This document shows positions 1 to 60,679 of a stretch of 64,000 nt of DNA, one piece after another. The notes under the pieces are model-generated. The model ran no database searches and was not told the origin of the DNA. It saw nothing but the letters and a program-made list of their open reading frames with translations. The translations under genes and the position numbers were made by a program. Within the stretch, counting starts at the first letter, position 1. Every line of letters begins with the position of its first letter. This DNA is from Sinohyriopsis cumingii (taxonomy: Eukaryota > Mollusca > Bivalvia > Unionida > Unionidae), in the NCBI GenBank assembly GCA_028554795.2, contig CM068838.1:125495928-125559927 (forward strand), given 5' to 3'.

Positions 1-1596
1 GTAGGGTGGGGGGGGGTACAAACAAACGGGGATGTGGAGTCCGACTATAGTCAAGGACTTAATTTTGAAAGGAACATTTACGAAGGCTTTCACTCGGTAA
101 ATATACATTGTCTTAAAATGAATTCTTCATAAGATGCATTCACGTTTCGAATATATTGGTTGCTAAGTGTGTTTGATCTGAGATTTTAACAGAAATGCTA
201 AACGCACTTTTTCCGTACGCCGCCCTGACGCAAACTAGAACCACGAGGTTCATCAGACCGTCTTGAGTGCGCATGTGTAACCGGCAATACACACTAGTCA
301 CTCATTCTGATGAGCTGGTGTCACACTGTAGGCATAATGTAGAGGCAGTCCTACACTTCAGTTGTTCAAAATTTCAAATAGTATACCTTCAATTAAAAAA
401 ACTTCCTGAGATCACGTATAATCTCGAGGGAAACTCTTACCAGGATCTTCGTTCAATGATTCGCCCTGCTACCGCGTCTTTGTCAGTTTTTGAGCGTGTT
501 CCAAGTCACTGAATTATTGACTGCAGAAACAGTAATATATCGAGATGCTATCATAGCTGCGTACCTTTATGTCTCCTTTTCACAGATTTGTTTAAAGTCC
601 TGTATACTTTCAGCGTATTATAGCGTCTTCATCTGACTTCTTTGGGAATAGTTGCAGGTTATTTAAGCAAAATGGCGGGCGCATCTGACTATACTATAGT
701 TAGTCGGGTTCTCGAGTTAAACTTTCCTGCAAGATGATTGGTTCTTATTTCTCACGTTGATTGAGAAAATTAAAATTTGGCACTGAACTGCTCCCTAAGT
801 CCAATATTAGAACTTTAAATGTTAGAAACAGAAAAAAAGAAATAAAAAGCGCCAACAGATTTTATAAATTATTTTGAATTTATTTTTATCCAATCATAAA
901 TGAAGTTAGACGTTTTCTCTCTTACCTCAGGTGCGCTGGTGTTTGAGCGTTTCGGATTTACTCTTTGCCAATAAGGGATCGAGTATTTAATTATCCGGAT
1001 TACGGGTATGTGCCTTGTAATGTTTGTTCACACAGAATAACTGTGTTAACAATGGCTTGGTAGCTGGCATGTTGTACCGTGGACATATACACTAATTTTA
1101 TTGAGAGTCGTAATTTCATTGCATAATAACAATCATTAGCACGTTGAACCTATTCTCGTTTCAACTGTGGTCAATCAAAATTGAGAAATTCTAAAACAAA
1201 GTACAATATGGAAAGTCCCAACTAAATACCCACCAGCCTTTCTTTTTAAAGAAAAGAAAAACGAAAGTCAGTACACCTGAGTGTAATTTGAACTTTGATA
1301 CAGCTGCTGTCATAACACGTATATCTATAGCTTACATACAATATAGCAAATATACACATAGCATACACTGGACCATTGGCAAAGGTCACTATAAAACAAA
1401 AGGGAAGGGAATTCGACTAGGTAATTGAAGCCTATATCGGATAAACGACTCTTGGGAATACACTAGGGAAAAATACCCCAATAAAAAATGTGACTCTAAG
1501 TAAAGTTCTGATCCAAATTCTTTTTTAAAGGAAACAAACAAACACACCTTTGGCGGAAACAATAACATATAAAACACCCTTTATTTTTTATGTAAA
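1..1596. other. Intergenic DNA, no gene recognised
   Basis: AT-rich sequence. The only open frames are short, such as one at 267-512, and have no recognisable domain or splice context. It contains one copy of a roughly 113-bp dispersed repeat (1036-1148). I see no RNA gene or other element. Confidence 0.5.
1036..1148 (+). repeat. Direct repeat, copy 1 (partner at 6173-6286)
   Basis: About 113 bp beginning AATAACTG and ending GTTGAA. It is clearly similar, with scattered substitutions, to 6173-6286 in the same orientation, 5.1 kb away. The best-conserved core reads GTACCGTGGACATATACACT. Family unknown. It could be the 5' region of the LINE that ends next to the second copy, or an independent short element. 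Confidence 0.75.
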
Positions 1597-1694
1597 GGTG
1601 GGGGGCTGTCTGGTGCCCCCACCCACAAAGAAATTCACAAAAGTTATTGCTTCTTTTTTTTTTTGGTGGGCACCAGTCAGATGCCCCCTCCCCA
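1597..1694. repeat. Imperfect palindrome, hairpin-forming
   Basis: The left arm (GGTGGGGGGCTGTCTGGTG...) and right arm (GGTGGGCACCAGTCAGATGC...) are imperfect reverse complements of about 27 bp separated by a T-rich loop. This could be a small foldback element or MITE. No clear target-site duplication was seen. Confidence 0.5.
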
Positions 1695-3479
1695 TTTAGC
1701 CCAAGAAATAAAGTGTTGTTATGTGTTTGTGTTTCCCCGAAAAGTGTGTATGTTTGTATTTTTTATAAAAAGAGTTTCGATTAAAATTTTAGTAACAGAC
1801 TAAATTTTGATGGGGTATTTTTAAATTCCCTAGTATTTTCTAAAGGGTTGTTCATCCGATAGTGGGTTTAATCCAACATCTCAGAGTTCCTTCCCTTGTT
1901 TGTAAGGTGATCTTTGCCAGAGATAACCTATGTCTCGTGTATGCTTAGCTACGATGTCGTAGCCTCAACTTGATTTGTTGTGGTTGAGGCTACGAACTGA
2001 TCCCATATCATGTAATGGAGCAAAAAATATCATCACTAAAGTTAGAAAAACGAACAGTGTAGAAATCAACTACATAAGTAAAGAAGTTTGGCTTATTTTA
2101 AATTTATTAAGCCCTTACACGATAAAATAAATTGGCATGGTTACTCTAACCTTATCCTGTCCGCCATGACAGATAACGCGAGACTCTCGCCGTGACCCCT
2201 TTTCTACGTAAGGCTTGCCAGAACATATTTTGGATATTCTACGCTATATTATTATCAATCAAGTGCGAATAATCGCTTCTTGGTGGAAGTTCAAAGTTGC
2301 CGATAAACCGTATTTACTTTTAATGCGCAGAATTTCTGACCCAAACGGCGCCAAATTTTTACTACGATTTGTTTACATTTCCAAATAAGGCGTTAATGTC
2401 CTTATATGGCACACAAAGAAACGAGGCTGAGAACGGAAGTAATCATTATTTGAAATAACATGGCGGACGATCTAAACGAAAATATAGGCTGAAAAAAGTA
2501 AACGAGATTTTACAACTATTTCAACAATGATTTTCGATACTTCCGGTATTAAATAAGAGGACTACTCTATTTATTGGATTATAAGCAAGGAATATGTTTA
2601 AAGTGTTATTAGGAGGCTAAAAGAGCGCCGGGTGTGATTCACACCCGACTTGCTCCATTAACACGTATATGCTCATGTTAGTACCCTGTCCACGAGGTAC
2701 GAGTAAGGGTACTAATATTAGTACTAGTGTATGCTATGTGTATCGTTGCTATATTGGGTGTGTGCAATGAAGTCTGTATGTAGGAACGGCAACTTGATCA
2801 AAATATATCACAGATGGCCTATCATATAAAGTATTTGGACATTTTTAGGTCCAACAAATTATTATACATTTTTATTTTGAAGTATTAATTTAGAATTTTT
2901 ACGAGATAGGCTGTGCCCGAGTATGGTAAGGAGCCACGCTTTATTTATTCCTTTGTGTTTCCTTTATCTGAGTTTAGGCCTTCTCTTTTAATTATTTGTC
3001 CTTAACAGTTAATAAAGGTTCCAGAAGGGTTTTTGGTGTAGGGTTAGTTCCTAAGTTAGTTTGGGTAACTCATTTTGTTAGTTTCCATGTTTTTGTTCTG
3101 TATGTCTATTTGCTGCATTTGGGTTTTTGTGGCACTCTTTCGCAAACCTGTTCACGTCGCGTAGTGCCTTGTGACGTAGCCCTGCGACGTATGTGCATCT
3201 TATTTTACCCACATGAAGGTTCCCCGTGTCCCTTCTAACTATTACGGAGAAAAAAAGAAGAAAAAAATCTTTTTTCTTCTTCTTCCTTTCTTCTTTTTTC
3301 TTTTATAGATAATGTTATATTAGCATTTTTAATCTAAAAAGTTATCCTGATAGTCTAGTTATGTTTGTTAACCAAAGGTAATTTTAGGGTTAGTATTCCC
3401 TATAATGTTAGCTCTTACTAGATTATGTAGGTACCGGAGGGTCAAAAGTTACGTTTTATTAGTTCTCATTAGGTGGAAA
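1695..3479. other. Intergenic DNA with short palindromes, no gene recognised
   Basis: Contains a perfect 11-bp stem (GTAGCCTCAAC / GTTGAGGCTAC, about 1956-1993) and an 8-bp stem with a one-base loop (GGGTGTGA-T-TCACACCC, about 2630-2647). An 11-bp inverted pair, TAATGGAGCAA at 2013 and TTGCTCCATTA at 2650, bounds about 650 bp. A short ATGGCGGACG start near 2461 runs only a few codons and is not called a gene. A pyrimidine-rich stretch at 3268-3303 would be a poly-A tract on the minus strand and may mark the 3' end of the LINE to its right. Confidence 0.4.
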
Positions 3480-3700
3480 GATGAGTGAGGGGTCCAGCCC
3501 GAGCACTCATTGTGGCTCACCCCTAAGGGTGGTAAACCGAAGCCTTCCCTCCCATCCCCAACCCAATGCATTGCTATTTTAGAGAGTTGTAATTATGGTT
3601 TATGTGGGGCGTAGAGATGAGTGAGAGGCTCCAGCCCGCGTACTGGCGGTAGCTCACCCCTAATGAGTGGTAAACCGAAGCCTACCCTCCCATCTCCCCA
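3480..3700. repeat. Two tandem copies of an approximately 85-bp sequence
   Basis: Copies at 3480-3560 and 3615-3700 are about 135 bp apart. They share GATGAGTGAG, TCCAGCCCG, GCTCACCCCTAA and GTGGTAAACCGAAGCCT, and both end in CCCTCCCATC. They lie just 3' (minus strand) of the LINE reading frames and may be part of its 3' UTR. No other copy was noticed in the window. Confidence 0.7.
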
Positions 3701-3719
3701 CAACGTGACGTCATGCCGT

Positions 3720-4249
3720 TACAAATTTAATTCATTACCTATCAGTATGCCATCGTTGTTTCTATAATGTAATCTATGACCTTGAATAATGTATTTTGAT
3801 CAAAATCTCCGTCCATAAAGAGTATATTGCCCCTGCGGTACCTTTCTCTTCTGCATATTTCCCTAATTAGTTGTAGTCTTTCGTTCTTTCTATTTTTGCA
3901 CTGGGTAGTCATGTGGTCTTTTGTAAAGCTTGCCCTTTTGCATAACGGGCACATTGGTATGGTTTTTATCATGTGTCTCCTTAGAGCCACATCTCCAGTG
4001 AGCCATGCATTACGAAGATACTTAAATATTAAGCTTTGTAGTTCGAAGGATTTGATCTGTGTCCAATGCCCCCATACTCTTAGCCAGTTAACTCCCCAGT
4101 TCTCTTGTTCGACTTTACATCTAATAATTTTTGTAATTTCTTCTCTTATCCAGTTGTGCGTTTCTTCCTTTGGCCTACTCCATAAGCCTTTCTTTGTCCC
4201 GGTATTTTATTAAAATATCCTTAATACTTTTGAACTTTCTTGGTACCTC

Positions 4250-4318
<69 letters not shown>

Positions 4319-6165
4319 ATTTCTTAGGGAGAACCCAAAACCAGTGAATGTATAGGGCTTCCCATGGTGTCTGTGGTTTTACGTTTAAAGTTTTAAATCT
4401 ATTTAGTATGTTTGCGCATTTTAGGAGTAGTGGGCTCGATAGCTCTAGACCCCCTCTCCGGTTTATTCTATGCAAAGTTTCTTTTATTATATAATGTGTT
4501 ATGAAACCCCAGATAAAAATTATTTTGTCATTATCTACTTTGTTTAGCTCCTTGTTATCCATATATATCGATTTAAAAATGCAATTTCTGTTGGAGTAGA
4601 AGTACGTTTCGGCCACTTGTGCCCGTTCCATTGTGCACAGTGGCATTTGTGTCCAGATATATATTTTCACTTCTTTTTTCCGTCATATTCTTGTAGTATT
4701 CTGTTTCATCAGTTTTACCAAAATATACTCCTGGTGCTTTAACTCTGTTTTTTACTAGATATGGCGGTAGTCCCGGGTGGTTTACCCACCAGTTGCCTAT
4801 GTTTAGGATCTCTGTTTTATCGTGATTTATGTTTGAACCAGAAGATTTGCCAAATTTTTCGAATTCTATCTCTGGATGTTTAAAGGATCTTATAAAGTTG
4901 GTCAATCGTCTGCATGCTGGAGCGTTTTAATTTCCTGTTGTAGGTTGGGAATTTTTATCCCTTCAATTTCTTTGTTGTTTCTTATCATGTGACTTAAAAT
5001 TTCAATCGCTATTACGTTGCCTCACCGATCTTTGTATTTCAATTCATTCGTGGTCGCCCTATTCACCTGTACTATTGAAGTTATTTTTTATGCAGGATTT
5101 TGGTCCAGCTTTGGAAATTTTATCCAAAACCAAATTTTCCAAGAACTCTTTTTTATATGTAGTTATGTTCTAATTTGTCAAACGCCTTTTCCTGGCCGAA
5201 AAGTACCATAGCACCTTTCTGAGCTGTTTCGTTTATATAATCTATTATTGTCCTTATATTCAGAATGTTATTTTGAATATCTCTGCCCACCCCCCAACAA
5301 GTCTGATTTATGTTTATTATTTTCCCTAGCACTCTTTTCACTCTATTCGCTAAGACCCTGCTTAGAATTGTGCAGTCTATAGTCAGGATGGAGATGGGCC
5401 TCCAGTTTTTAAAGTCTTCCCTATCTCCCCTTCCCTTTGTAGATTAACGTAATTATTCCCTCCCTCGTTGTTTTTTGTCATTGTATCTTTCTTTAATAAG
5501 ATGTTATTATATAGTAATTCAAGGATCGGCGATAACTCACCTAGGAATTTTTGACAAGAGTTCTGCGGTGAGTCCATCTCCTCCTGGCTATTTTCCTTTC
5601 GCTAGTTGTCTAATGGTTGCATTTATTTCTTCTATCGAGATGAAATAGTCACACATGCCTGTATGTTCTGCTGAGATCATCTTGCACTTTACTTCATCTA
5701 GATACTTATTTATAGTGTTATTATCGATTTGTTGAGTTGTATATAGTTCTTTATAGTAATTCATAATAAATTACATGATATACTTTTTTCTCAGTTTATT
5801 CACTATTGTTATTCCTTATTTTTCCTATTTTCTTTTATCCCCCTTTCCTTATTTCTTCCCTTATGTATAGGCCATCTGCCTTTTTATATACGTGGGTAAA
5901 CTTTTCTGCTCTAATGTTCTTTCCTTTGCTTTCTTCTTCTATTTCCGTTAGCCTCTCCTTTATTTCTTTAATTTTTCCTCTGTGTTGTTTTTCCCTAGTT
6001 GCACTTTTAGAGCCTGTTTTTCCATGTTATATAATTCTTTCCTTCTTTTCGAATATCCTACTGCGTTTTCATTAATTTTATATCTGAAAGTATCCCATTC
6101 CTTTATTATGTCTCTATGTTCTGACCTTAAAATTTATTTTAAAAACTTATTGCGAGAGCATTCTG
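3720..6165 (-). mobile_element. L1/Tx1-like LINE, degraded reverse-transcriptase ORF2
   Basis: Read on the minus strand, segments in several frames give consecutive parts of a non-LTR retrotransposon ORF2. These are a pre-RT segment (GDGLTAELLSKFLGELSPIL, about 5520-5600), motif A (EKAFDKLEHNYI, near 5153-5200) and a stretch beginning SGSNINHDKTEILNIGNWW at 4780-4850, as found after the RT core in L1/Tx1 elements. The C-terminal zinc knuckle CPLCKRASFTKDHMTTQC lies at 3890-3950. The frame is split by many stops and frameshifts and by a TA microsatellite at 4255-4314, so the element is dead. The 5' end is near 6165, next to a dispersed repeat; the 3' end may extend to the poly-T tract near 3268-3303. 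The exact clade (L1, Tx1, Nimb) cannot be fixed by eye. Confidence 0.75.
4255..4314. repeat. (TA)n microsatellite
   Basis: About 30 uninterrupted TA units inside the C-terminal part of the LINE. Confidence 0.95.
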
Positions 6166-6172
6166 TAACTAA

Positions 6173-6286
6173 AATAACTGCGGTAACAATGGCTTGCTAG
6201 TTGACATGTCGTACCGTGGACATATACACTAATTTTAGTTGAGAGTCGGAATTTTATTGCACAATAACAATCATTAGCGCGTTGAA
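6173..6286 (+). repeat. Direct repeat, copy 2 (partner at 1036-1148)
   Basis: Same orientation and extent as the copy at 1036-1148. It begins right next to the 5' end (minus strand) of the LINE. Confidence 0.75.
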
Positions 6287-8603
6287 GATATTTTATCGCC
6301 GGGCTTTAGATAATTCCTTTGTCCGTTAACCCTGTTGCAAAATAACCTTTGGGGGTCTATATAACGAGTTATTTTATCTCTGCCACGTCTGTTTAAGCAC
6401 CCATACACGGCACGAAATTAAGGCATTTCTACCCGTATATTTAAAAAAAAAACGAAGAAGAAAAATAAAAACACTAGACAACCATCTGCGCACGATTGTT
6501 GCCAATATGACGGTGGTCCATGCGCATGACGTCACTTGGTCGCGCTTTGTAGATAACATCAACAATCCGACAAACATACAATCATACATATTTTTTCTTG
6601 TTAAAAAGTTATGTTTCTATGTTGAAAATGCATACCCCTCCTTCGTTTACGGTTTATATTTTAATAATAGAGAGTTCCCGAATGACGTCATTAGCTGCCA
6701 TATTTGTGGTCAGCTGGCAGATTTACAGTTGACTTTATATGGTGTTTGTAAGTTGAAATAAATTCATTGAATCTCAAGATACTTTTACGAAAATTACATA
6801 CATAAACACAACGCAAATCAAGCTTTCAGTTTGTATCTAGATGTGTGATTTATAAATGGACTTTGCGTCAGTGTGACTTGTTAAAAATGGTAAATTTTGG
6901 TGATGGCATTTAGGAGAAGTTGCCAGGTTACCCGTCGTCCAGGTAAAATGGCAGAATATCGTCTGCTAGTGACCTTATCGGGAAGCATCTATAAATGCAA
7001 GAAAACCATTGTGGATGAATAGATCCTATTTTGTACAATTACAAAAAGTGTTAAAATACACGTATAAAAGTTGTCCAATACAAACTACTCACTCACACCC
7101 ATTCCCCAATGTTTAAATTCTATTTAAAAATCAATGTTTTAGTGCGTGCACATGTTTGGAACAGGTGCGCTCAACTCAGTTGTTTTAATAATTAGACCTG
7201 ACATACTATTTTCTTCACCAGAGTAGTACCTGGCAGCCATATTGACTGTCCATAGCGATCAATATTTTTCGTTTGAAAGTTTGTTGTTTGTTGTTGTTTT
7301 TTTTATATCACATTTCAAGTGTAGTGCATTCAACAGTCGTGAATGAACAGAATTTAACTGAAGTATATAAATATTAAATTTGAGACAACAGCTCGAGGGG
7401 ATGGCACAGGACAGAAGCCTTTGGCGAGTGGGCGGCCAATACCCTGGCAGAGGTGACGGGAAAAACTGAACTGATATGCGACAACATGACCACGTTGACA
7501 TACACCTTTTTTGATAGGAATCACAGTCGTATAAATCACAGTCAAACCTTTCATCAGTATTAATAGTTTTGGGGATTGACTTATCGGACTATATAAATTA
7601 TGTATTTATTAAACGCACAACACACATTGCAAAGCCCTCTGCCTTCACGCTGTATACTAGGAGAAAAAGAAAAAAAAGACAAGACACCCCCCCCCCTCCA
7701 CACACACACACAGAGTAACCGCCTTAGAATACGCTGGGCCCGATTTGTATCATTTTAGCGAGGAAATGCGATCACGATATTGTATAAGATACTAAACTAA
7801 AAATTGTCTTCCATCGCTTTAAAATGAATGTCACTGTATAGATATCTTTTTTAAAAATTACTAGCGCTAAGGTTCCCTGTGAGCGCGAGGCCCGATTGGG
7901 TCAAATCGATCCAATCGGCTTAAGGTCTGCCCTCACACACACACACACCATTTCTGTATGTAGTGGCTATTTAGAACTGCATCAATCCTCAGTTTTATTA
8001 CGTAATAATAATCTCACCGACGTCACAACCTTTCGGTGACGTGTTATCACTAATAGCAATGTGATCAAGAGTGTGAGTTTACATATTGTGATAAATTAAC
8101 TCCCAAATATGGTGTTGATAACGAAGGACGATATGTGGGTTTGTTGTCACCTGTTTATTGAAATGTTCAATTTTCCGGCATGGAAATCGTTCTGGAACAC
8201 GCATGCGTGCAGTTAGACACTTGCCGGTATTTGGTCATAGCTACCGGTATATCTCGCGCGAGATTGAAATTAGCGAAAGACAGAGGTTTGTGTTATTCCA
8301 CGTGGATTTATAAGTCGCCATAAATAGGATTTGATCCGGAAATAGCATGTACATATCGCCAAAATTGTCAGTTAGTATGATGATACTATTGATTGGTACG
8401 GGGCTGATTTATCGGCCTAGAGTCTACATAACTGCATGATTTCTTCCGTGTTTAATATGAAATTCCAGGAGTTACAGTCCAAATTAAAAATGAAGGGGTT
8501 TTATTGGTGATGGAACGTAATGAATTATGTCTCTCATTAAGAGGACATATTCTTTGTATCTAGCTGGATGTTTGCCCCTCGCCCGAACATAACAATTTGG
8601 AAA

Positions 8604-8652
<49 letters not shown>

Positions 8653-9374
8653 CAGAGTACAGCTTATTGGCTTTGCACTGAAAAAAGACGATGCATCAAC
8701 CCCATTGTTATTATTGGTCAGAAGAATTTCAATGACATCACAACGATTAGATGACTTGTCATTTTTAGGATATGGAAACCAAAACCGAATGAGACACGTC
8801 TCCCAGAGCGTATTGATATCAATCCGACTCGGTATGGCATCGTAACCTCGCGGTTAAAAAAAAAAAAAATTGTTTTCCGTCATTGTTGTGTTCTCAATGG
8901 GATTTTATTCGGGTGGTCATGCTTGACAGATGGACATGTTTACCACTGTATCAACTAGTGGCAAAATGGTGGATCCAATTTCTTGATCATATTTATCGAT
9001 AATTTACGATCTCGCAGAAAATAAAGTAATTTATATTTTGTAATAATGTTTTCCTTGACAGTATTGCGTTTTCTTTTGTTTGCTCTGAGAACTTATTTAT
9101 TTTAAAATTGTTATAAGGTCTTGAACTAAGAAAAATGTTTCATTAGATTTATACAGTTTTATAATTTTAAAAATAGTACTCTTTGGTGATATAATTTTTA
9201 TATCATTAATATAAACATGACTGTCTTATTATTGCAAATATATTCATGGAATTATTTATAGTAATAAATAATATTATTATTACCGGACTCACATGTATTT
9301 TGATGAACAACATAATCGAACGTAATGTCATAGAATGATAATATTAAGACTATAGTTGTGGTTATGGGCTCATG
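6287..9374. other. Intergenic DNA upstream of TMEM67, no gene recognised
   Basis: AT-rich. Short reading frames (for example at 6507-6761 and 7354-7554) lack recognisable domains. A CT-dinucleotide tract at 8605-8651 and short CA tracts near 7700 and 7935 are the only simple repeats. No tRNA, rRNA or transposase signature seen. Confidence 0.5.
8605..8651. repeat. (CT)n microsatellite
   Basis: About 20 CT units with one interruption. The long Leu-Ser frame across it is an artefact. Confidence 0.9.
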
Positions 9375-10242
9375 GTCATTCCGTACCCAATTCGTTTCAA
9401 ACCCAGTCGAAATTGGTCGTTTCGTACCCAAGGTGCTAGTCGTTTCGTACCCGAGGTGCTGGTCGTTTCGTACCCATTATTTTTACAATGTCAAAAATAT
9501 AGTATTGTCATATTTACCGCTCCCTCTCTAGGTTTAATATTTCTCCTAACTTGCATGAACAAAGCATATCCGGACAAAAATTGACCAAACACAAATAATT
9601 ACAGTAATTGTATTGTTTTCACCGTATAATAGCATCTCTGTACTAAAAAGAATTAACAAAATTTTACATTGCCAGTAAAAAGAAGAAGAAAAAAAAACAA
9701 AAAAAAACGTTGTTCTGGTTTAAATAACTGAATAAGTTTATTATTTTTTCTATTGTTCAAATTAACAAACATTGTCATATTTATTGGTATTGTTTAGTAA
9801 TGACTAACGCGACTGAAAAAATCTATAAATGTTTATCCCCTCAAAGGACTAGAAATTCTGCGATCTTTTAATAATGGGGCTGAACGCAGATAAAACAGTT
9901 TTGCTTGATTAAGTTTCTCTCCTCCAAGGACCAATACTGGTGTTAATTTCAATTTTTGTTGACTGCTTTTTAAATGTGTTGAACGTGTATACTATACGGG
10001 CACCCAAGCCACTTTTTTTTGGTAGACTGCCGGCTGCATTAGCATTCTTGTGCAAAGTCTTGGACACTTTCACTGATCACAAGAAACTAACAAGTTAGTA
10101 GTATAATTGAAATTCTCTCTGTTTTTAACTAAGTATAAATATTAATATTTTTTCATGGCGAGTGAAAATTTGTTTTCATTTTTTTGGCAAGATATGTTTT
10201 AGTTTGTTATTCTCTTAAATATAATGCACATAGATAGTCGCG

Positions 10243-10276
<34 letters not shown>

Positions 10277-10639
10277 TTGACACTGCATTTTACAGATATT
10301 TACTTCCGTGTTTTAAAACTGATTTATTTTAATTATTAAAATAATCGAAGATATGTATGCATGCTTTGATTCTGCCAGTATTGAAACGTTTATAATACAG
10401 CACCCCATGTAATACGACATATTTTTCCCCAGAATAGAACAGTAATAATTACAATCCAATGAATGATTGAAGTAGACGCCCCAGTAAGACGAAAGATTAA
10501 CTCAAATAGGTTTCTTAAAGAACAAAAGACTAACAACATTATTCCGAATTGTACATTCCAGTTTTATTACATACATGAAGAAAACATAATTACTATATGC
10601 ATTTCTGTTTTCAGATTTAAAATCATTGTATAATAATGC

Positions 10640-11035
10640 AGTAAATTGGCCTTGTCAGTCAGTTGTCGGGCCGTATATGCTACTGCAACGTTTCAGTAAT
10701 TTTGAGGAGGAGATAACGCCGTTCTGGCACTCTTATCACACCGAGAATATTTTCGCCGGCAGTTTTTGCTATGTTTATTTTCTTCCTGGTATCTTCTCAG
10801 CTTTTTTTCTTCTTCTGATACCACTTGAATCTGTGTAACAAAAGAAGTGACTTCGTAGAGGCTGACTAGCACATAGAAAGGAAGACTGGCTTTTGCCGGC
10901 TTTTGTGTTGAGCCTACGATGCCAACCCTCTACATCGATGTTGGTTCGAACAGATTTTCTAACACAGACCATGATTCAACCTGGAATGTGGTATTCGTAA
11001 TCCAGGTTGACTCCACATATTGAACCCAACTGATG
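10640..11035 (-). pseudogene. MULE transposase C-terminal remnant
   Basis: Minus-strand translation in three successive frames gives consecutive pieces of the conserved C-terminus of animal MULE transposases. First is YVESTWITNTTFQVESWSV. Then comes SVRTNIDVEGWHRRLNTKAG, which carries the family hallmark 'RTNNDVEGWH'. It is followed by FYVLVSLYEVTSFVTQIQVV, VSEEEKKLRRYQ, and finally ISSSKLLKRCSSIYGPTTD. At least two frameshifts separate the pieces and a stop lies among them. The DDE catalytic core and any N-terminal zinc finger were not recognised further up the minus strand (11035-11990), so most of the gene is lost or too diverged to read. It lies inside a TIR-bounded block, which supports the assignment. 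Confidence 0.75.
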
Positions 11036-12026
11036 TATATTTCTTACAAGCACTTTTTATTTTACAATTAACTCAACAAGTTATATCTGTATCGTGCTTT
11101 CTTGTCAGATCTTGTTTGCACATAAGCATTATAAATGTGTATTCGTTTACTGATATAAATAGACAGAACAACATTAAAATAAACTGAGATAGGAATCAAA
11201 CGTAAATTGTACAATACCTGACGACAAACGATTAGGAGTGGAACACGTGTCAGTTGTAACCGACATAGGAGAGTAAGGGCAGGGACAATTAGTAACAATG
11301 TATGCGTCCATGAGAACTATTGAATGAATTTCCTAACTGATTCTGTTGGGCTTAATGATAAATTTTAATTCATTGTATATAACTCCAAGTTTGCCTTCTG
11401 ATCATTATACTAAATTATAAGTGCCTGAGTAAAACAAATGTAAATTTCCGAAGATAAAGTAAATCCCCAGTAAATAAGTGAAGTAAATATATTATTAATG
11501 TCAAATAATTCTTGACACGGAATTTATTAAGATTTCTCCGAATCAAAAGATTGCTGAAAAACAGAGACCTCGTGTAATTAGTTCAAAGTAAAACAAAAAC
11601 AAATAAATAATCAAACACGTGTGAAATTGAATTAAGCTTGAAAGCTTCAACTTACTAGATATCCGTGGATTTTAACATTTGATAACTTAACGTTTCAATT
11701 ATGCTTCCCGTTAAAGTATACAAGGTCATGTAGTATTCATATAATATTATCCCTTAGTTATGTTCCTATTATTATTATTATTATTACTTTCCATTTATAT
11801 ATAGCCCTTACTTCACTAACATGTCGATTCATTTTAGCATTGATCGTTCGTGTAATGACCTTTTAATTTTGTATGCTCTATGTATGTATATTTATATATC
11901 ACAAAGGAAGAAAAAAAGCAACATGGAAATAGTATGTTCTGATGAAATGAAATTGTATATGCTATTAAATTACAATACTTCATCTTTAGGTACGAAATGA
12001 CTATACCACTGGGTACAAAAAGACAA

Positions 12027-12261
12027 GGGGCCCCGGGTGGCCGAGTGGTCTAAAGCGCTGTCCGTTACGGATCACTGCCATCTCACCTCTGTCTGGGTGG
12101 GTTCGAGTCTCGGATTCAGCCAATGTGGGTATGTGAGAAAGCTTGCCAGTAGCTTCTCGTGGGTCGGTGGTTCTTTCCGGGGTTTTTCCTTCATTAATAC
12201 TGGCCGCCATGTATAGCCTATCGTGTGCTGAAAAATGGCGTTAAACCTTACAACAACAACT
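12027..12261 (+). mobile_element. tRNA-Leu-like SINE (family A), nearly full length
   Basis: Begins GGGGCCCCGGGTGGCCGAG. It has a Pol III A box (TGGCCGAGTGGTCTAAAGCG, from 12038) and B box (GGTTCGAGTCT, 12100-12110), then a body with GTGGGTATGTGAGAAAGCTT and GGCGTTAAACC and a (CAA)n tail. Eight further complete or partial copies lie in the window. It has inserted into the right TIR of the MULE, splitting its motif array, so the SINE is younger than that transposon. Confidence 0.9.
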
Positions 12262-12405
12262 AAAAATTGACCAGCGACCATTGCTTTGGGTACGAAACGA
12301 CTTATTTGGGTACGAATTACTGGGTACGAAACAATTTGGGTACGGATTTACCAGGTACCGTGCTAATGTGTGTACGCCAAAAAAATAATTCGGAAAACCA
12401 GTCAC

Positions 12406-12413
12406 CCAATCGG
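12406..12413 (+). promoter_or_regulatory. CCAAT box in the presumed TMEM67 promoter
   Basis: CCAATCGG lies about 45 bp upstream of the start codon and fits the NF-Y consensus well. No TATA box and no clear RFX X-box (usual for ciliary genes) is visible in the roughly 100 bp between the MULE end and the ATG. The transcription start is not determined, so this could equally be 5' UTR. Confidence 0.4.
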
Positions 12414-12455
12414 ATAGCTTCTCGAGCATTCCGACCGTCTCCAGAATCAACAGAA

Positions 12456-12645
12456 ATGGCGGAAAAAACAGCGCTGATTGTCTTCTTTGGAATTTTAATT
12501 TCAGTTCAAGCCCAGATAAGGCGATACAACGAACCAATAAAGCAAGAGGGAGTAGACGTATGCAAACTTACACCTGGGATGTATTTCTTGGCATCCAATT
12601 TGACATGTATGCCCTGTCCTAACGGCACGACAGTAAGATCTGATG
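12456..12645 (+). CDS. TMEM67 exon 1
   Basis: 63 codons plus one base. The start was chosen because GAAATGG is a good initiation context (G at -3 and +4) and opens a signal peptide (MAEKTALIVFFGILISVQA). The frame is open upstream, but that part is transposon and SINE sequence. It continues to CKLTPGMYFLASNLTCMPC, the first cysteine module. Donor G|GTGAGT at 12646. The exon sits between two TIR-bounded blocks. Confidence 0.9.
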
Positions 12646-15600
12646 GTGAGTTCAGACATGTTTATCCGATTATCCTCTGACACATCGTATTATTTTGTGT
12701 TGATTATTCATTACAATATTAGACAATACCATTTTTTTAAATTGGAAATAAAGTTTTACATTCTCTTCCAACTGCAATAATAAAATATTTATAAAAGGCA
12801 TGCATATATATAGAATAGCAGAGAACTCGCCCCATGGAGAACTCGCCCTGGGAGAACTCATCCCAGGTGTCAGGAGAAGTCGCCCCGTGGTGGTCGGAGA
12901 AGTCGCCCCACTTCGCCTGGAGAAGTCGCCCCAAGGATAATATATAGTAATTCTGAGATGTCGCCACATGGTTGTTAAGGCTTTATTTATAGTTGTTTTT
13001 CTTCAACTTAATAACTTATTAAATCTATAAAATGTGAAATTTTTTAAAGTTTTCCATTTGATCAACTTCGCTTCTGTGGTTAACGAAAAATAAGTTTTAT
13101 CTGTCCCTTTCGCTCTGCTCTTCAAATCATTAGATCTATTTTATTTGGAAAAATAAGAGGATGTAAGCATGATGTGATGTCTGCAGTTTTATATATAAAA
13201 TGGTTCAAACCTAATAACCTAAGTCATCCTGAGATGACTTTGTGGCATTGACTTGTATAACCCGAAATTGACTGAATTGGCGCTGACTGCGAATAAGCCA
13301 AAGGGTTATGTTATTATCTCTCTAACTGAACAATTTAATCCGATTTTTCATTGAGATTTGCTAACCATTGACAAATGATACTTGAACTCAATAAAAAGTA
13401 TCATTGATGCCTACTCAAGAAATGCGGTCATTACCGAGTTCATCATCATGGCTAATGCGCATAATTCGGACAGTTTCTGAAAAATCACTTGTACTAGTAG
13501 TTTATTTCTTCTTTTTTGTAAATGTTTGTAGTTATATTATTTCTCAATAATAAACAAACTATTTCAAGTTGAACGAGAAGTTTCAAAAATATTTCACTAC
13601 TAAATTACCGATGCAAAATAAACAAGATTACGTTATTTTGTAATATATAATAACAACATGGTCGCGTGTAATAGACCAAAATTCACTAATGAGGCACAAA
13701 TTGATGTTGCTGACACGTTAACTTCTTATATGTTTCTTTCCTTAATGCATACATTTTTGCTATATCAATATACGCCTATCATTCCAAAAAATTCAATGTA
13801 AACAATAAATAAAACTTGGATATGCAGTGTTTCCCTTTATGCACATTGTGCATCAGGGACGCACACTGGAGAAAATTGATGCACACATTTTGTTGCCATG
13901 CGTTTTTTTTACGCAAAGGATTTTCATAATATGATCAGGATTTATATAATACCCAATGTATTAGACGATGGATGGCATCACATATACTTAGAGTATAGGC
14001 ATTGACTGGTTCCCTGCTTTGTTTGCTCCCTGCCTTGCGCTCCTCTATTCGTATAGCAAAGTTGCAGGGAACATATAAAACAATAAACCAGACTAGCATA
14101 GGCAATGTTATGACGGAATAGCTTCCCATAATCTCTCGAGCTTCTCACAATTTCCATCGAGCTCAGCAAGCTGTCATCTAGATATTTAACCTCAAGGCTT
14201 GTTGTACTAGAAAGTGATCTCCAGATTAAAACGTCATGCACTAAAAAGCATTAGCGAAGAAAGTAAAAGAAGCAGAACACAAAAGAGTAACTGTGGATCT
14301 AACTTGAATGAGAAATGGAGAAAGTAATTCCCTTGACTAGAATATGGCACATTCATTATGATTACCAGTGTGACTTCTGATTGCGTGATTGCAAAGACTG
14401 CAAAAATTAAAAATCGTTTCGTGACAGGATTTTAGAATTTTTAAAAATCTGCCCTCGTTCGCCATAAGATATTCGGAGAACACATTATAACCTAAGACAT
14501 TATTTCACAACAAAGAAATCAGTAAACCTGCAGAGACAAATGCGTTATTTAGATTACAAAGTCAGCGGGTCATTGTTGGTTTTTAACTTTTGCTGCAATA
14601 AAAGAAAGATCTTAAAGTTCAAGTGTAACTTATTAGAAAGAAGATGAATCATTATCCTCCTTGATATTTGGATAAATGTGTTATAGGACGAAGTACAATG
14701 AAACCTTTGATAGTACACATTTTATGAAAGGCAGTAAATTAACTCCCATTTGGTTAAAAAGATTTATTTGGCTTTTTGTATTGGCTTATATGTAATGTGT
14801 TGGGTTATAATATTGCTTGAGGAGACTGTTAAAAGTATGACTTTAAAAGAAAAATGAACTAATAAAATTATTCTTTGAATGGACAATGCATTTGTTTGTT
14901 AATTGTGCATGTTGGTGTATTTGTATTTTTAGAGGAAGAGAGAGAGAGAGAGAGTATGTTGTGCAAGTTGCAATATCCTATTTCAGGCTGAAGAAGTATG
15001 AGTCGTATGAAAATTTGTCAGTACATTTTTGACCACCACATTTTTTGTTTGACCCCCAGTTTTGACACCAAGGGGTTTTTGTACCCTCAATTTTACACCC
15101 CTGGGGGATACATTGGATATGAAAATATTGCAACCTGAATGGTGTATATCAATACCTACGTTACTGTCGCCAGTGTACTTACGAGATATTACTAAATTAA
15201 GAGGCCAAGATTAAATTCCATTGAAAATATTTAAATCAACTGTTACAACGAACGGTCTGCTCTTTGATGGACGGAGATAAAACCTATGAGTGGAAAATGG
15301 AGAACTATGTGTGTGTGGAGTGGAAAATTTTGTGCAAATAATTTCGCATTTAATTTGTGCTTCTTCAGGCACATAATGTTTTAAAAGAAACGGATAACGT
15401 CTTTTATTTTAAAACAACAATTACGTCATTACATAACAGCAAAATAATAAAATAAAAGAGACAAACAGTCATACATATAATTATATTGTTATAAAGGATA
15501 TACAATTTATAAATTAAAAAAGAAAATTATACAATTTTATATAGTGCGCTGGTATTAAGGCCATTAGGATACAAAGTATCTAACTTATGAATCCAAAAGT

Positions 15601-17999: not shown

Positions 18000-20900
18000 G
18001 CCATGTTGGCCTATTCTGCACGTCGGGTAATCCTGCGCAACAGTACGTCATTTCTGTAAACATTTGATCACATGCTATTTTGGGTCAAAAATCCATTTTG
18101 TATCCAGAAAAAGAAGAATCATACATTAATTAAGAAAAGTGATATTTGTAAAGTGTACAAAAATATCCCACATTTAGACTCAAAATGCACATAAAAATGT
18201 GATTTCTAAATGGCAACGTGCCGACCCACTCCATGACCTTCTTGAACCTGTAACCCAGATAATTCGATTTACTATGCATCATTTAGAATCATGCAAATAA
18301 ATACGTTATATAAAAGATGGAAATGTGTACCTTAAAACAAAACTGTATTTTAATCCAAGTTTCCAATTTTGCAAGAAGTTGTCCCACACTTAAAAAATCG
18401 TCTGCTACCTAACGTGTCTACTTGCCTCTAGAACATAAATTCTCAACAAATTCCCCGGTGTATAGTCTATTTCTAAATTCTGTAGTAATTTTTCCCCCAT
18501 CAACAAGATGTTGTAAACACATTACATCCTATTCATTGTTGTTTCTCTTCCACTTAATAGCTTATTTTTCATAAAATGTTGAACTGTACTAACTTTTTTT
18601 ATAAGATCGGTTTAGTTTGCTTAATTTCTCTTGCCAATTATTGGCATTTTTACATTGAATTTTGTAAAACTAGCTATAAACCTGACCTAATTACTCGACT
18701 GAACTCATGACAGAAATAGTCCAAAGTAATATATTTCATTTCTGTAGCAAGATGGATAAACATTACATCTTTTCAAAGCTATGCGCAGAATAGGCAGACA
18801 TATGACGAGTCATAAATTAATATTATTTTGAATAGAATATTCTGGTGACAATTGCATCTTTTCAAATGGTAAGCATTGCTGTATTTTATTTTTGTCAATC
18901 GCTCAAATTCGGTATGCATTTTGCTTCAGTATTAGAAACAAAAACCTTAGGTGCGCAGAAATGCCAGACAGCAGTCCACACACTAACTTCTTATACTGAG
19001 TGCCAAGCAAGACAGCTGCTAGTACCATTTTTGTGAGTGTTTGGTATAACTCGCCTGGGGTCTGAACCTGTGACCTCCTGTATCCAAGGCAGATGCTCTA
19101 ACCACTTTGGCCACCCGAGCAGTTATGTCTAAACAAAAGCATCATATTAGTAAAATTTGTACCCTATCTAGATCTGACTACAAAAAAGTACAATATTACT
19201 AAGCTTGACTGAGAAATGACTTAGTTTTTAAAATATTTGAGATTTTCAAACCAGCTGTAATATCTTATCCATTTCCACTCTGTATTTTGGAATTTCATTA
19301 TGTTAATCATTTGCCATTTTAATCCTGGTGATTTTGATGGTTTTTTTTTTATTGTGATGATTGCCGAGGTGATGCACATAATCAAAAACTTTGTGTTTTT
19401 GTTTGCCATAGACACTGAATGAAAACTGGTAACCAAAATAGATAATTTCATGACATTTATTAGTCATTTAGGAAACTTAGTAACCAATGATTATTTGAAC
19501 TACTACTAATGGGAACATAGATAATAATATTGATTTCACAAGTTGCTTCTTGTTTTAGTACAAGACAAGTGAACCATTTTTTAAATTAATAATGCACTAA
19601 ATTTTTTTTGGTCTGTTTCAGTTTTAGGATGTATGTGTTCAGCAAGTTCCAGAATTGTCAAAGATTTCGGTGCTGGAAATGTAGAATGTGCTCCCTGCCC
19701 TGATGGAATGGTGTGTATCTTTGTTTATCCAGAAAAGATGAAAACTATATGCATAGTGTACAGTCTGTTCATGCATGTGCTCATTTTAATGTTGACAGTT
19801 CTTTTGTATATTTCATACACTGACTTTAAACTTCTAGCACTGACTGGGGGGAGGGAGAGAGAGAGTGTGTGTGTGTCATTGGTCTTATTCCTAACTTAGA
19901 TAACTCAGACCTTATTCGTTTTCAGGCTTTTATATATGTTGGGATGAACTTTCTCACCAGTCCAGAGAGGGTTCATGTTCCTCGGGACAGGAATGAGATC
20001 AGAGCCTTCATGACAGGTCTTCTGGTGAAGACTTTGTCGTCAAATTGCCTCTGTTTCCTGGGAACACTGAACTCAGCTGCAGTCTTGTATCCTTTCCAGT
20101 TCCTGATTCTTGCAAACTGGAGACTGTATAGGGACCCTCTGTCAGCTCAGATACCCTTAGGATCTTAATTTTCACGACCACCGGTGTTGGTGGATAAATT
20201 TGGGACATGTTTCTGATCACAGATCCAATTCAGACCCCAGAATCCCTTGTCTTGATGTGCTCTATCACATTTGGAATCAGGTACTCACCTGAAGTCAGAG
20301 GGTGTAGTTCTTAAGGGATTTTGGTCCCAAGAAAAAGCAATGTTTCAACCCAAAAATACTTGGAGATCCTGGTAGTGTTCCTAGCCTTACAGAGGTATGT
20401 CAACCTCATGTGTCATCATGATATTGTTGTCTCAGACAACACAGTATACCTCAGGCCTCAGGGAGTATGCATCCTCCTTTTCTTTGCATTGAAATCTTTA
20501 ACCTATTCTGACAGGCAGCCTTGGAGGAGATTATTGTCCAAGTCTGCCATATTCTGGGTAAGAGGAATACCCTGGAAGACTGTCTGCCCAGAGTTGGTTT
20601 GTGTGTGGCCTAGAATAAAATAAATATTTCTATTGTAAGAATGGATTGCTTTGTATCTTGACTGCATTGAATGATGTAGTTGTCTTGTGTGAACAAATTA
20701 AGAGTTCAACTTTATGGCTAAATGAAATAAAATGGAAGAAAAGAGAAAGAAAAAAAAACATGGTTAATCTAGAATCTACAGTATGGTATCATACCATCAT
20801 GCTTACTTGATTTGTGGACATTGTTTATTCAAACGACTGTTAGTTAGATGGTGGAAACATGTGTTGATCTCAGGATATAGAAAAATCCCTGCATTTTTCT

Positions 20901-23900
20901 ATATTAGATGCATTTCCAGTCTTATGTAATGGACTGTCACATGACCTAAGAAACTAAAACCAAACCAGAATAAAAAACAAATACTGGATCTCTTTAGTCA
21001 CTGTTGCCTTGGAATCGTTATTTGTTTTGAAGGATCTGCATTAGATAGAAATATGTACTCTTTTGCTAATTTTGTCAGCAATACAGACAAGCTTCTTAAA
21101 AGTTTTCCCTTGAAGAGTTTGGGTCTCAGTGCCTGATCCACTTGGAGTTGTCAAATAACTATTTCCCCAGGATTCCGTAATGACGTATCAGCTTACAGAT
21201 TACCATACTAATGTCACATTCAAATGTGATTGCCATTCCAGGAATTGTACAGCTATGCTTCAGAGTGTAGTGATGTGGCCTGAAAAGGATTTGTCTTTGC
21301 AGAAGCCTGCCTGTTATTACAGTTTTGCTTCAAGAGAATTCTTCAGTCTTCCAAGACGATTTTGGTGAAAATTTTGCAGGGCACTGAGAGCAAAATAATT
21401 TCCTGCCTTTTTTTATATACACAGAACCTTATTTCCTTTCTTTGGTAGTTGGACAGTACAGTATATCCTCTGTTCTATTTTGTCGGGACATGCTCACTCT
21501 TCTAGATTTTAAGGAGTAGGAACCTCTGATAGGATGCTATCTGGTCCTGCTGCCTTGGTATTTTTATGTTTTCAGGGCATTTGAGATATTTATCTTGGGT
21601 GTTTTCTTTTTTGTTGTGTTGACTTTGAGCATCTCCACTATTGTGGATTTGTCATTTCTGTTGGTGGCACCCTGTTGAAATATTCCATCCATTGTTGTCA
21701 CTGTTTCTGTTCACCGAGTTTGTTTTTGACTAGGTGTGATGGCTTCCTTGTGAAATCATATAGCCTTGTGATGTATGATGTATATCTTCCCTGCTGCTGT
21801 CTCAGGCTCTTTCTTGGTGCATTTCTTGACTTTGTTTGATAACCTGCCCATACAGAACTCTGTATTCCTGTGGTTCTTGCGCACTGATTTAATCTGCTGC
21901 TTTATTGTTCTACAATCATTAGTGAGTGACCTTGTCTCTTATGCCAGTCAGTCATTCTTTGAGTGTTTTTTCTCTCTTGTCAAGGAATGTGCTGGAAGAA
22001 TTCTGCCACAACTCTCTTAGTTTGTTCCAGTGATCATCAATGGGTTCCTTTGTCAGGTTCTCAAGTGCCGTGTATCTTGCTAATTTGGCAGCTGAATTCC
22101 ATGTTGATGTCTTTGCGACTTCAGATTTTGCCTATTGAATTTTATCGATCTCTATAGGTCATGAGTCTCATTCTGAATGAACACACTAATTGGATGCTGT
22201 ATCTGTTCCTCTTTTAATGCATCCATGTAACAGGCTTCTCCTCCACTTGTGTCCAATGGTCAGGTGATCAACCTGATTTTCTGTTTTTCAGTCTGGTGAC
22301 ACCCCTTGTTCTTTGTGGATTGGTTTGTTCAGAAAAACAATGCCTCCAGCTGAATGCACAGAAATCATTGATTTTGATCGTTGTTTTTATTCATTATATC
22401 TAGCTCATGCTTTCCCATAGTCAATTTGTTTCCCTGAGTTGTCAGGGCCCACTTTGGCATTGAAGTCACCCATTATGATCTAGAGGTCTCTTTTAGGCAT
22501 CTAGTTAACAGTACTCTGCAACCTTCCATAGAAATGTTTCTCCATTCTTGTACAGCATTCATAGTGGAGTAGCATTGAATTTTTCTACCATTTGAGTTGA
22601 ATATTGTTGTAATGATTCTTGGAGATACAAATTTCTTCTCAGTCAAGGCCTTGGCTGCATCAGTCGATGACATATAGATGGCTTTTTCTGTGTGTTCATG
22701 GATAACATTTTCTTGAGTAATTAGTGTTGTTTGGCCAGTTCTTTTCCATCAGGTTTCACCGAGGCCAAGCACTTTCATGTTGTACCTTCTCATTGCATTA
22801 GCAACTTTTAATATCTTCTTACTGTTGGATAGGGTTCTGGTGTTTCAGGTCCCTATCCTAGTGTTTACCTTTATTGTTAGAAGGTCGGCCAGCTTACTGA
22901 ACATTTCTTGTGCATTTAGAAGAATTATGTGGCTTTTTCTGTCATTTTATTATCTCTGCTTGTATTCTTAGACTTACTTCCTTTCCACCACCAACAAACT
23001 CTGAATGTCCGACATGCCTACTATCTGCTCATGATATCATTAGATGGAAGGCATACTAAAATCACTTGTTGCAACCAGTAGAAATGAAACTTTGCAAACC
23101 AGTCTGTATTGTCTAATATCTTTGGTCAGTTTCTAAACTACACAAAATATCACGTTGTTGATAACCAGTTGTTGTATATGAAATACTTCTACTGTAAACA
23201 TAGGGAAAGATGCAGTTATCCTGGTATGTATGAAGTTTGAAAATCTAGGTCTCGTCGAATGATAAAATTTTAAAATTTTTGATTTGTATGCATCTGATTG
23301 ATAGAGACTAATTACAGATGGATACACTTGAAACAAAATAGCCTGAACATTTTTTTGGTCTATTCAGACTTGCAAGTATGTTGTAAAGTCACTTGCTGTT
23401 ACTCACCTGCCACTGGTAAATAAAAACAAGTGGATGAGTGAAATTTTTTAGCCCTCTTGTCCTTGTTCCATTAAGAATGAACTACATATGCTTGATTTTT
23501 ATTAAGCTAGAACACATAGTGTTTTGTCACTCTATTGTCTTAACTTTGCTGTGTTGGCGTCTTTTTTCCTCAAGAGTTTTTCAATGTCTCTTTTCAGGTT
23601 GCCTCATCCACTGGCTACAATTGTGTCCGTTGTCCAAATAATACCTACAATGCTGCTACTAAATCATGTTCACCCGGCACTTGCAGTGGCAATCAGGGTA
23701 AGAACAAAATTTAATTTTATTCTACATTCTATGAGTTGAACAACATTGAGTGTCTTTTTATGTGAATTTGTGGCAGTGTTGTCCTTAGCTTGTTTTAGGA
23801 AGACACTTAGCTGGACTATTATAACTCAATTCTGTCTGGTTCATCTCAATATCTACTCCAGAAATTTCAGAAAGTTCAAAACACAGCTGCTCAGATCATA

Positions 23901-39400: not shown

Positions 39401-42400
39401 AAGAGTTTTGGTTATTCGTTGTGTCCTTTGTGATCAGTTCAATCCATAGTACTATTTTTGTGCAGTCGACCTATTAAATCCCCATTTTGTATATTTTAGT
39501 TTATTATCAGTGTCTCATTTTGGTTATTTATTTGATTTTGTTTTTACCAGTGACACTTACATTTGTTGTTTGGCAATTTTTTTTTTTAGCCATTTCATCA
39601 ATGGCACAGCAAGTTGGCAAGTGTGGTTATAAAAATCATCGTGGGACACCGATCATGCACAGACTGTGTTTTGTTGGCAGACAATATATGGAGTTTAGGA
39701 GAGAGCCATTGTCCTTTTACATGTAGGAAGATTGAAATATGTACCCCAGAGCAGGTCCTGCTGGTCTAGAGTAAGTGAAGGAACTCTTATTTTACCAGCT
39801 CATCTAAGAGGTCTAGATTTTTTATTGTCTCATGTTGAAGCACTGGGTGCATGGTTAGAGACTCTTTGTGGTGATATTTGTTACTTGACCAGTCATTAAC
39901 AAGCAGCTGGGCACAAGGCACCTTGTGCCATATCAAGTCACCGGGTAAAGCTATGGACTACAGATAAAGGGCCTTGGGGCGTCAGGCATCTGTCACTGGT
40001 CACTGAGCAAAGTTTTAGATAACTGGGCACCAGGCATGTGTTACTGAGAAAGTCAAATACCAGTTACTGGGCATTAGTTGTTGGGGAGTATGCTATCTTT
40101 GAGGAAATGGTTCATACTCTTCCCTTCCCTATATGTCCCTTCAACCCCTACAGGATTTGAGACTTCCACCACCAGTTGATGATTCTTCACATTGCAACAT
40201 GGATTAGATGCATTTTCTTTGTCTCATTTGTCAACAGATGGCCTTTTGACTGTGAGGCCTTCCCTCCTCCCCACCAGCTCCAGATATCAAAGGGGGGGAC
40301 ACCACTCTCTACACCCTCAGTCGGTAATGGGTTCCTGTTCCACTTCTTCAATTATAGAGGACTAATCAATCTGGTCTTGCCTTGACAGCAGCCAGAGGAT
40401 GATAATTTTTTTAAATGCATTCCAATGAGTTTGAGGCTTGGTTGGACCTAATGAATTATGCATGGGTCCTCTCCACATCACGAGAGGGTTACCAGTTTTG
40501 TTTCTGAGACCCTCCACCTTTATGTATGATTGCCTTGTATTTTCATCATACCAACCATAAACCTTTAAGGGAATGTAGTTTACAACTTTCACCCAAAGTC
40601 AGGGATTCTGTTCTCGTATTTCCTGGTTTTTAAAAAAATAGGGAAAATTTTCTTCTTATAATTGATATTTCCCTGTTAAAGAAGTTTTGGGGGGAAGGGC
40701 ATTTCAGGATAGAATGCTACAAAGTGCAAGATCTTCAGGCTCTGTGCCTTCCCATCCTCATCATTCCTTTAATGGGGTCTTCCATTCACCTCAGTCTCAC
40801 TTCATGTGGATCCTGAATATGCAGCAGATGTAGTTCCCCCAGAAAGACTTTTTTGAGGCCTGTCTTATATGTCTTCAGTTAGAGACCTCTCAAGGACCCT
40901 CTTTCAACTCAAATTTGCCACCACCTCAGCTGGTGAAGGTATGAGGCCAGATTTTTCTTTACATGAGTTCAGATTTCAGTCCTTTCCCCAACTCTTCCCA
41001 AAACTTTCAACATCCTCTACGCCAGTGCCTGAGATTCAGGACAGGGTCTTCCTTAGAGCTAAACACCAAGCACAGCCCATGACATATGGTTACATAATGC
41101 CCCTACATAGACCCCAAGTTGCCACAACCTACTGACACAGCATAGACCCTGACCTCCCATCACATTATGGCCCAGCATAGACCCCGACCTCCCATCACAT
41201 AATGGCATATCAAACCAAGGTCTTGACTGATCTTTAGATTACAGTATTGGCTCTGATCTAGGTGCAAGTGCATTAGTTTTGCCCGTCACCCCTGCTGGGG
41301 TATTGGCCGCCCACAAAAGATTGCCAGAGGCTTCTGTCCTGTACCATCCCTTCAAGCTGACTCCAGGTGTGACCCATCTTAGTCATGTCTGTTTCAAGGT
41401 TGCGTCGCCAAGTGTTTGTTGGTCGTCCCCTTCTCCGCTTGCCTTGAGGGTTCCATTTCAATGCCTGTTTGGTAATGTTGGTTGGCGGCTTACGTAGGGT
41501 GTGTCCTATCCAACCCCACCTTCTCTTCTTGATCTCGTCCTCTTCTGGAAGCTAGGAGGTTCGCTGCCACTTCCTGTTGTTGCTGATGGTGTCTGGCCAG
41601 CAGATCTGGAGAATTCTTCTTAGGCAGCTGTTGATGAAGGTCTGAACTCTCTTTATGGTCGATTTGGTGGTTCTCCAGGTCTCTGCTCCATACAGTAGGA
41701 CTGACCTCACATTCGAGTTGAACAGTCTGATCTTGGTAGTTACGGAAATTTCTTTCGAGCTCCAGATGTTCTTGAGCTGTATGAAAGCTGCTCTCGCCTT
41801 TCCGATCCTTGCCTTGACATCTTCGCCTGTGCCACCCTGCTGGTTGATAATGCTGGCCAGGTACATGAAAGACTCCACCTCTTCCAAGGGACTTCCCTGC
41901 AGTGTGACTGGGTTGTTACTGCCATAATTGATCTTGAGGATCTTGGTCTTGTCTTTGTGGATGTTTAGGCCAACCTGTGCTGATCTGGCTGCCAGTACGT
42001 TGGTCTTGTCCTGCATTTGCTGCTGACTATGGGACAAGAGTGGTAGGTCATTGGCAAAGTCCAGGTCCTCAAGTTGACTCCACGATGTCCACTGGATCCC
42101 ATTTCTCCGCCTATTGGTGGACGTCTTCATAATCCAGTTGATGGCGAGAAGGAAGAGAAATGGTGACATCGAGCAGCCTTGCCTCACAACAGTCTGCACT
42201 AGGAAGCAGTCTGTGTGCTGTCCTGCATGAATGACTCTGCAGGACATTCTGTTGTAAGTGTTCTTGATCAGGTTCACCAGCTTGGTTGGGATGCTGTAGT
42301 GGCGAAGAAGTTTCCAGAGTGTCTCTCGGTCCACGCTGTCAAATGCCTTCTCATAATCGACAAAGTTGATATAGAGTGAAGAATTTCCACTTCAACAATT

Positions 42401-60563: not shown

Positions 60564-60679
60564 GTAAGTTAAAGTTCTTTCAGCTGAGTAAAGAGATAGT
60601 GTGTTAGTGTATCATATTTTTGTTATGTAAATGTCATGTTAATAACAGTAATACTGTGGCATCACTTTACCATTCCAGA

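Follow-up and report, generated by a model that had tools for sequence, protein, structure and literature searches.

An internally deleted foldback-type MULE with a nested SINE next to the TMEM67 start codon of Sinohyriopsis cumingii

The block of repeats directly upstream of TMEM67 in Sinohyriopsis cumingii is very probably the fossil of a foldback-type Mutator-like element (MULE) family of the host, a copy which lost its catalytic core before insertion, subsequently decayed, was split by a SINE and is now passive beside the gene. All positions refer to the window, i.e. the whole stretch of 64,000 nucleotides that was analysed, unless another contig or locus is given. The following features were identified in the window, where '.' means no strand:

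9358..9366, strand '.', target-site duplication, left copy GTGGTTATG, 7/9 equal to the right copy at the family-defined ends
9367..12359, minus strand, MULE-family element, internally deleted, 2993 bp including the nested SINE, with the transposase remnant on the minus strand
9367..9485, minus strand, left terminal arm, consisting of an 8-bp end and five 15-bp motif units with inner steps of 23 bp
9486..10649, minus strand, region downstream of the transposase exon, common to other copies (9485-10070 at 73-85% identity)
10650..11060, minus strand, what is left of the last transposase exon (RTNIDVEGWHRRLN), disrupted by frameshifts and stops, G+C 0.42 compared with about 0.30 around it
11032..11126, strand '.', deletion junction, lacking about 3.7 kb that L051 and L052 have and that holds the remaining transposase sequence
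11127..11984, minus strand, 5'-side non-coding part of the element, common to many copies (11232-11952 at 77-91%)
11985..12024, plus strand, right terminal arm, inner part, with two units at a distance of 23 bp
12025..12261, plus strand, tRNA-derived SINE inserted in the right arm, with seven further stretches in the window
12262..12359, plus strand, right terminal arm, outer part, ending in CAGGTACC
12360..12368, strand '.', target-site duplication, right copy GTGCTAATG, 7/9 equal to the left copy
12406..12410, plus strand, CCAAT box, by sequence
12456..12645, plus strand, first coding exon of TMEM67, by collinearity, encoding the signal peptide and the first cysteines, with GT next to it at 12646

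The 15-mer TGGGTACGAAACGAC matches the window nine times with up to three mismatches, compared with a mean of 0.5 and a largest count of 2 in 100 shuffles. All nine matches are inside the block, five on the minus strand (9375-9476) and four on the plus strand (11987-12335), and the 23-bp spacing is seen between the inner units of the left array and between the first two units of the right array. With the SINE excised, the two arms were aligned to each other with a score of 106, where 500 shuffled pairs reached at most 45 and 500 random pairs from the window at most 51.

Searching the 2.9-Gb assembly of the same species gave 393 matches to the motif (189 + 204) as against 3 (2 + 1) for the reversed control. 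The 100 matches listed of these 393 fall into 43 groups when neighbours less than 8 kb apart are joined; 16 of the groups have both strands, in all 16 cases minus then plus, and 27 have exact matches on one strand only. Twenty copies were fetched, 16 two-sided and four one-sided (L066, L067, L068 and L069). L068, one-sided by exact matches, has a second arm once up to 2 mismatches are allowed, while no second arm was found in 4.9 kb of the inner side of L069, nor in the approximately 1 kb of inner side fetched for L066 and L067, which is too short to tell. The initial annotation had proposed that inverted arrays of this motif bound the block, and the window matches, the arm alignment and the genome-wide recurrence of the arrays as inverted pairs in other copies all bear this out.

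The arms of the family are roughly 80-185 bp long, with 15-bp units most often 23 bp apart. By our unit rule, each arm of ten copies, including that of the window, has 3-7 units, which makes the family one of the foldback type. The long relatives L051 and L052 measure about 6 kb and carry a multi-exon MULE transposase between the arms. A sizeable foldback-type MULE family is thereby documented, having asymmetric 8-bp ends and a repeated unit that is a candidate for transposase binding.

The termini of the window element are the 8-mers GGCTCATG and, as reverse complement, GGTACCTG, as in other copies. Most copies end in GGCTCATG on one side and in GGTAACTG or GGTACCTG on the other, immediately outside GTCATTCC or GTCGTTCC. 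The ends defined in this way, 9367 and 12359, are near those first given for the block (9375 and 12358) but not identical to them. Target-site duplications were looked for in 14 of the 16 two-sided copies, L060 and L064 having been left out beforehand due to unclear ends; both ends were unresolved in L054, L055, L059 and L065. Nine of the ten copies with both ends resolved have duplications of 8-9 bp with 0-2 mismatches: 9/9 in L051, L057 and L058, 8/9 in L050, L053 and L056, 7/9 in L061, 8/8 in L052 and 7/8 in L062. L063 is without one, and the duplication of L057 (C3:51656570-51660319) is uninformative, as this copy is inserted in an ATGT tetranucleotide repeat.

The duplication of the window element itself is supported, though imperfect. 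With the ends fixed beforehand, the chance of at least 7/9 equal positions is about 0.3% by a hand estimate. A blind scan, to which the ends were not given, performed at chance level: the window site scored 4.0 and the best of the scan 4.5, a value reached or exceeded at 134 of 200 random sites.

The orientation of the interior relative to the two different end motifs divides the copies into two sets that are flipped with respect to each other. The transposase 3' side is beside the GGCTCATG end in the window copy, L050, L053, L054, L056, L057, L058, L060, L061, L062, L064 and L065, where L064 and L065 were placed by their other end only, and beside the GGTACCTG end in L051, L052, L059, L063 and L068. 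Recombination between the inverted arms could produce such a flip.

The peptide RTNIDVEGWHRRLN is encoded on the minus strand, with an EGWH region at about 10945. When the last exon of L051, which is open and reads SWSVFRKSVRTNNDVEGWHRRINAKAGKANLPFYVLV, was compared with the window by tblastn, it matched two linked pieces, 11031-10801 and 10772-10662 (E 1.3e-25), as well as a second frame at 10960-10778. The transposase relic that had been noticed is thus present, but it is longer than noted, covering about 11031-10662 in two frames. When 150 of 250 candidates were scored, the read-through of the remnant matched the own genome at no fewer than 140 places, among which the window itself accounts for two; the best match among those scored has 84% identity (E 5.1e-32). 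Seven of the top 20 places lie in the part of the genome covered by the listed motif matches, and each of the seven is at most 1.5 kb from such a match.

The translated search against MULE profiles suggested at the outset gave no Pfam MULE match when the window copy was taken by itself, since this copy lacks the core exons. At the family level there is such a match: the exon-joined transposase of L051 matches PF10551 (MULE) with an E-value of 2.5e-9 and 37.9 bits, the cut-off being 27.6. Thus neither of the two outcomes named at the outset as refuting, a missing profile match and unrelated arrays in other genomic copies, was observed. The core exon of L051 on its own reaches only 0.063, and no PF10551 match was obtained for the corresponding frame of L052. 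At L090, which is more distant, PF10551 matches over the cut-off and the C-terminus follows in the same order. The profile is not specific to eukaryotes: among 14 control genomes it matches in 3, each of them prokaryotic. We assign the family to the MULEs because arms, duplications and transposase occur together.

Two further loci, L091 (335-1366, minus strand) and L092 (1388-2419, plus strand), have a MULE last exon SIRTNNDVEGWHNRMNRRARKG in frame with an open frame of 343 residues, and two more similar frames are found upstream in each locus. The L091 frame had no Pfam match at the cut-off. PF10551 matches on C12 (68601977-68756653), C478 and C153 follow each other mostly in steps of about 12.4 kb; these are tandem arrays of another MULE-containing repeat.

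The SINE at 12025-12261 interrupts the right array. This array had been correctly located, but its interruption was missed by the initial annotation. The insertion differs from the consensus of eight copies at 10 of 234 sites, and its own target duplication is poor (8/12 by eye). The other seven stretches are 152-254 bp long with 78-88% identity, several of them having clean duplications by eye. The nesting order is clear, the MULE being first and the SINE later. The same tRNA-headed family has many copies at 27989-63698 of the window, some of which are 5'-truncated (35637), and a copy is found just outside the MULE arm of L069 (5020-5259).

The gene next to the element was correctly recognised as TMEM67. 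The frame 60285-60572 on the plus strand, which holds an exon of TMEM67, matches Pfam PF09773 (Meckelin) with an E-value of 2.3e-14 and 52.9 bits (cut-off 25); taken singly, the frames 19585-19899 and 45972-46178 and the first-exon frame 12264-12680 had no Meckelin match. Additionally, five collinear plus-strand pieces among 12 rows match human TMEM67: 12471-12644, 19630-19710, 23589-23672, 54948-55013 and 60315-60560, of which the first-exon piece is weak alone (E 1.6). From the end of the element at 12359 to the ATG at 12456 there are 96 bp, 9 of them belonging to the duplicated target site, with the CCAAT box at 12406, in agreement with the roughly 100 bp and single CCAAT box reported before. 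The reading frame is open upstream of 12456 to an in-frame ATG at 12366, inside the duplicated target site.

With only 96 bp between the element and the ATG, an overlap of the proximal promoter with the arm is geometrically plausible; unless very short, the proximal promoter region must extend into the arm. The right arm, either by itself or together with the SINE, might have been co-opted, so that its units or a promoter of the MULE itself bind host factors or start the transcription of TMEM67. We consider this unlikely. The X-box has the consensus RYYNYY N1-3 RRNRAC. No consensus X-box is present in 11551-12700, which makes another input conceivable; there is one match at 11550 and there are 94 in the window. 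Furthermore, 12201-12500 is CpG-rich with an observed/expected ratio of 1.36. Excerpts of a study in rice give a precedent, in which a MULE 0.4 kb upstream of OsPsbS1 is associated with higher reporter activity (PMC4178011).

The state of the arm argues against co-option. On the TMEM67 side, the 5 units of the arm contain 10 mismatches (2.0 per unit), and the 5 units of the left arm contain 6, while none of the 18 arms from nine other copies exceeds 7 mismatches over 3-7 units or 1.4 per unit. Hence the TMEM67-side arm carries the most mismatches per unit among the 20 arms compared, and even this understates its decay, since a sixth unit of the right arm, having 5 mismatches, falls outside the unit rule. 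The TMEM67-side arm retains half of its 10 motif CpGs (5/10) as opposed to 8 of 10 in the left arm and, in the other arms together, 70/96 and 69/84; only one of the 18 other arms, the left arm of L052 (4/10), keeps a smaller share. The array is not better kept here than in other copies, and the SINE splits it. Given this mismatch load and the interruption by the SINE, co-option is not supported.

High CpG content is general to the upstream region and to the element elsewhere: the observed/expected ratio is 0.87 for 1-9372, 0.95 for the element and 0.23 for 20001-64000, and it ranges from 0.68 to 1.18 for the element in 16 copies. We rejected CpG richness as a sign of promoter use, as the whole upstream region is rich and the gene body poor. 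The ratio is about 0.9 ahead of TMEM67 and at its start but only about 0.2 from 20 kb on; we read this drop across TMEM67 as germline gene-body methylation, not as a mark of the arm. Scanning for bacterial-type promoters gave nothing, with a model that is not meaningful for this host.

A stronger version, to which we attach little credence, is that the arm together with the SINE replaced the distal promoter of TMEM67, transcription starting in or being driven from transposon DNA, possibly with an N-terminal extension of 30 residues from the ATG at 12366. Most likely the element is a passive neighbour of TMEM67, and the essentials of the promoter would most likely be found in the 96 bp between element and ATG, perhaps also in the adjoining arm. 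An old MULE near a gene start is by itself ordinary. This insertion is of use as a natural test of how near to the promoter of a ciliary gene the arm of a decayed transposon can be without harm.

The loss of the catalytic core was overlooked in the original description of the block. The core exons of L051 do not match the window, the interior of which aligns piecewise to L051, L052, L060, L056 and others. Specifically, the transposase 3' side of L051 and L052 is matched piecewise by 9373-11031, and their 5' side by 11126-11750; the gap between the aligned sides is 3.66 kb in L052 and 3.77 kb in L051. It is improbable that the copy was full length at insertion and that its core was deleted later at this site. 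Deletions are common, as various ones are seen among the copies, but C4:10143986-10145248 aligns over all 1303 bases of 10650-11952 at 86%, including the junction, and the flanks of the window do not match there. Among the 40 places scored, out of 183 candidates, this was the only other one with the whole junction, which is a narrow basis for the view that the element moved in its deleted form. The own assembly gave no second copy of the insertion site, whether occupied or empty.

Since the C4 copy has the same deletion, the deleted form was probably mobile, served by the transposase of another copy, and the window copy is probably, as judged from sequence comparison, a non-autonomous element moved in trans. 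We suggest that in one branch of the family the loss of about 3.7 kb, the catalytic core among it, preceded the jump, and that the transposase of a relative presumably bound the arm units and cut at the 8-bp ends. The element would then have been inserted beside TMEM67 with 9 bp of the target duplicated, and thereafter the copy would have decayed and received a tRNA-type SINE in its right arm.

A reading of the arrays as two minisatellite-like repeats without relation to each other, and of the peptide as a product of chance, can practically be dismissed: the window copy alone has no profile match and no relative was found in public viral, phage and prokaryote collections, but the genome-wide copies, the arm alignment, the duplications and the transposase match refute it. 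Those collections were searched with the remnant or the motif as query; Pfam and PDB, searched likewise, gave no relative either. Four prokaryote and two viral motif matches were considered as MULEs and rejected, none being MULE-like in translation as judged by eye, without a profile search; the match in TMED132 is antisense within a frame of 552 residues. Thirteen single 15-mer matches in viral contigs were taken for chance by a rough estimate for the size of the collection. Rfam gave no match in 8400-13500.

A literature search returned nothing on the motif TGGGTACGAAACGAC or the peptide RTNIDVEGWHRRLN, and two unrelated papers for pieces of the SINE; among the matches listed, none concerned this MULE family or a transposon promoter of TMEM67. 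Related systems have been described. According to excerpts of PMC5225508, Muta1 and related MULEs of Aedes aegypti are about 3 kb long, have introns in the transposase and gave rise to many non-autonomous derivatives; Muta1, called a type 2 foldback element, has arms of 145 bp with 9 copies of a 12-bp repeat. The present element resembles the Aedes MULEs of these excerpts in its length of about 3 kb, arms of more than 100 bp, a short terminal motif with subterminal tandem repeats and duplications of 8-9 bp, and its family, like them, has an intron-containing transposase and many non-autonomous derivatives. It differs from Muta1, as described there, in having a 15-bp unit, most often 23 bp apart, and different 8-bp motifs at the two ends, where Muta1 has a 10-bp imperfect palindrome.

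The Tm1 Mutator/foldback family of root-knot nematodes, as presented in excerpts of PMC3169594, has a Phantom-like transposase within arms of tandem units. Common to Tm1 and the present family are asymmetric terminal motifs outside an arm of 13-15 bp tandem units, a varying number of units and 9-bp duplications; the motif sequences differ, and the terminal motifs are 7 bp in Tm1 and 8 bp here. In the parts of PMC6446971 and PMC10294476 dealing with MULE-Mollusca and other MULE groups, duplications of 8-11 bp are given and bivalve genomes are stated to carry MULEs; these groups, compared by description only, are alike in superfamily and duplication length. The OsMULE upstream of rice PsbS1 is, like the window element, a MULE close upstream of a gene; the excerpts of PMC4178011 report presence/absence between cultivars and a reporter test for it, whereas the window element is known from sequence alone.

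Other mobile-element traces are present in the window. A weak zf-RVT match, below its cut-off, is located at 3742-4206 on the minus strand, and a reverse transcriptase fragment at 41552-42391, also on the minus strand, matches RVT_1 with an E-value of 5.2e-19.
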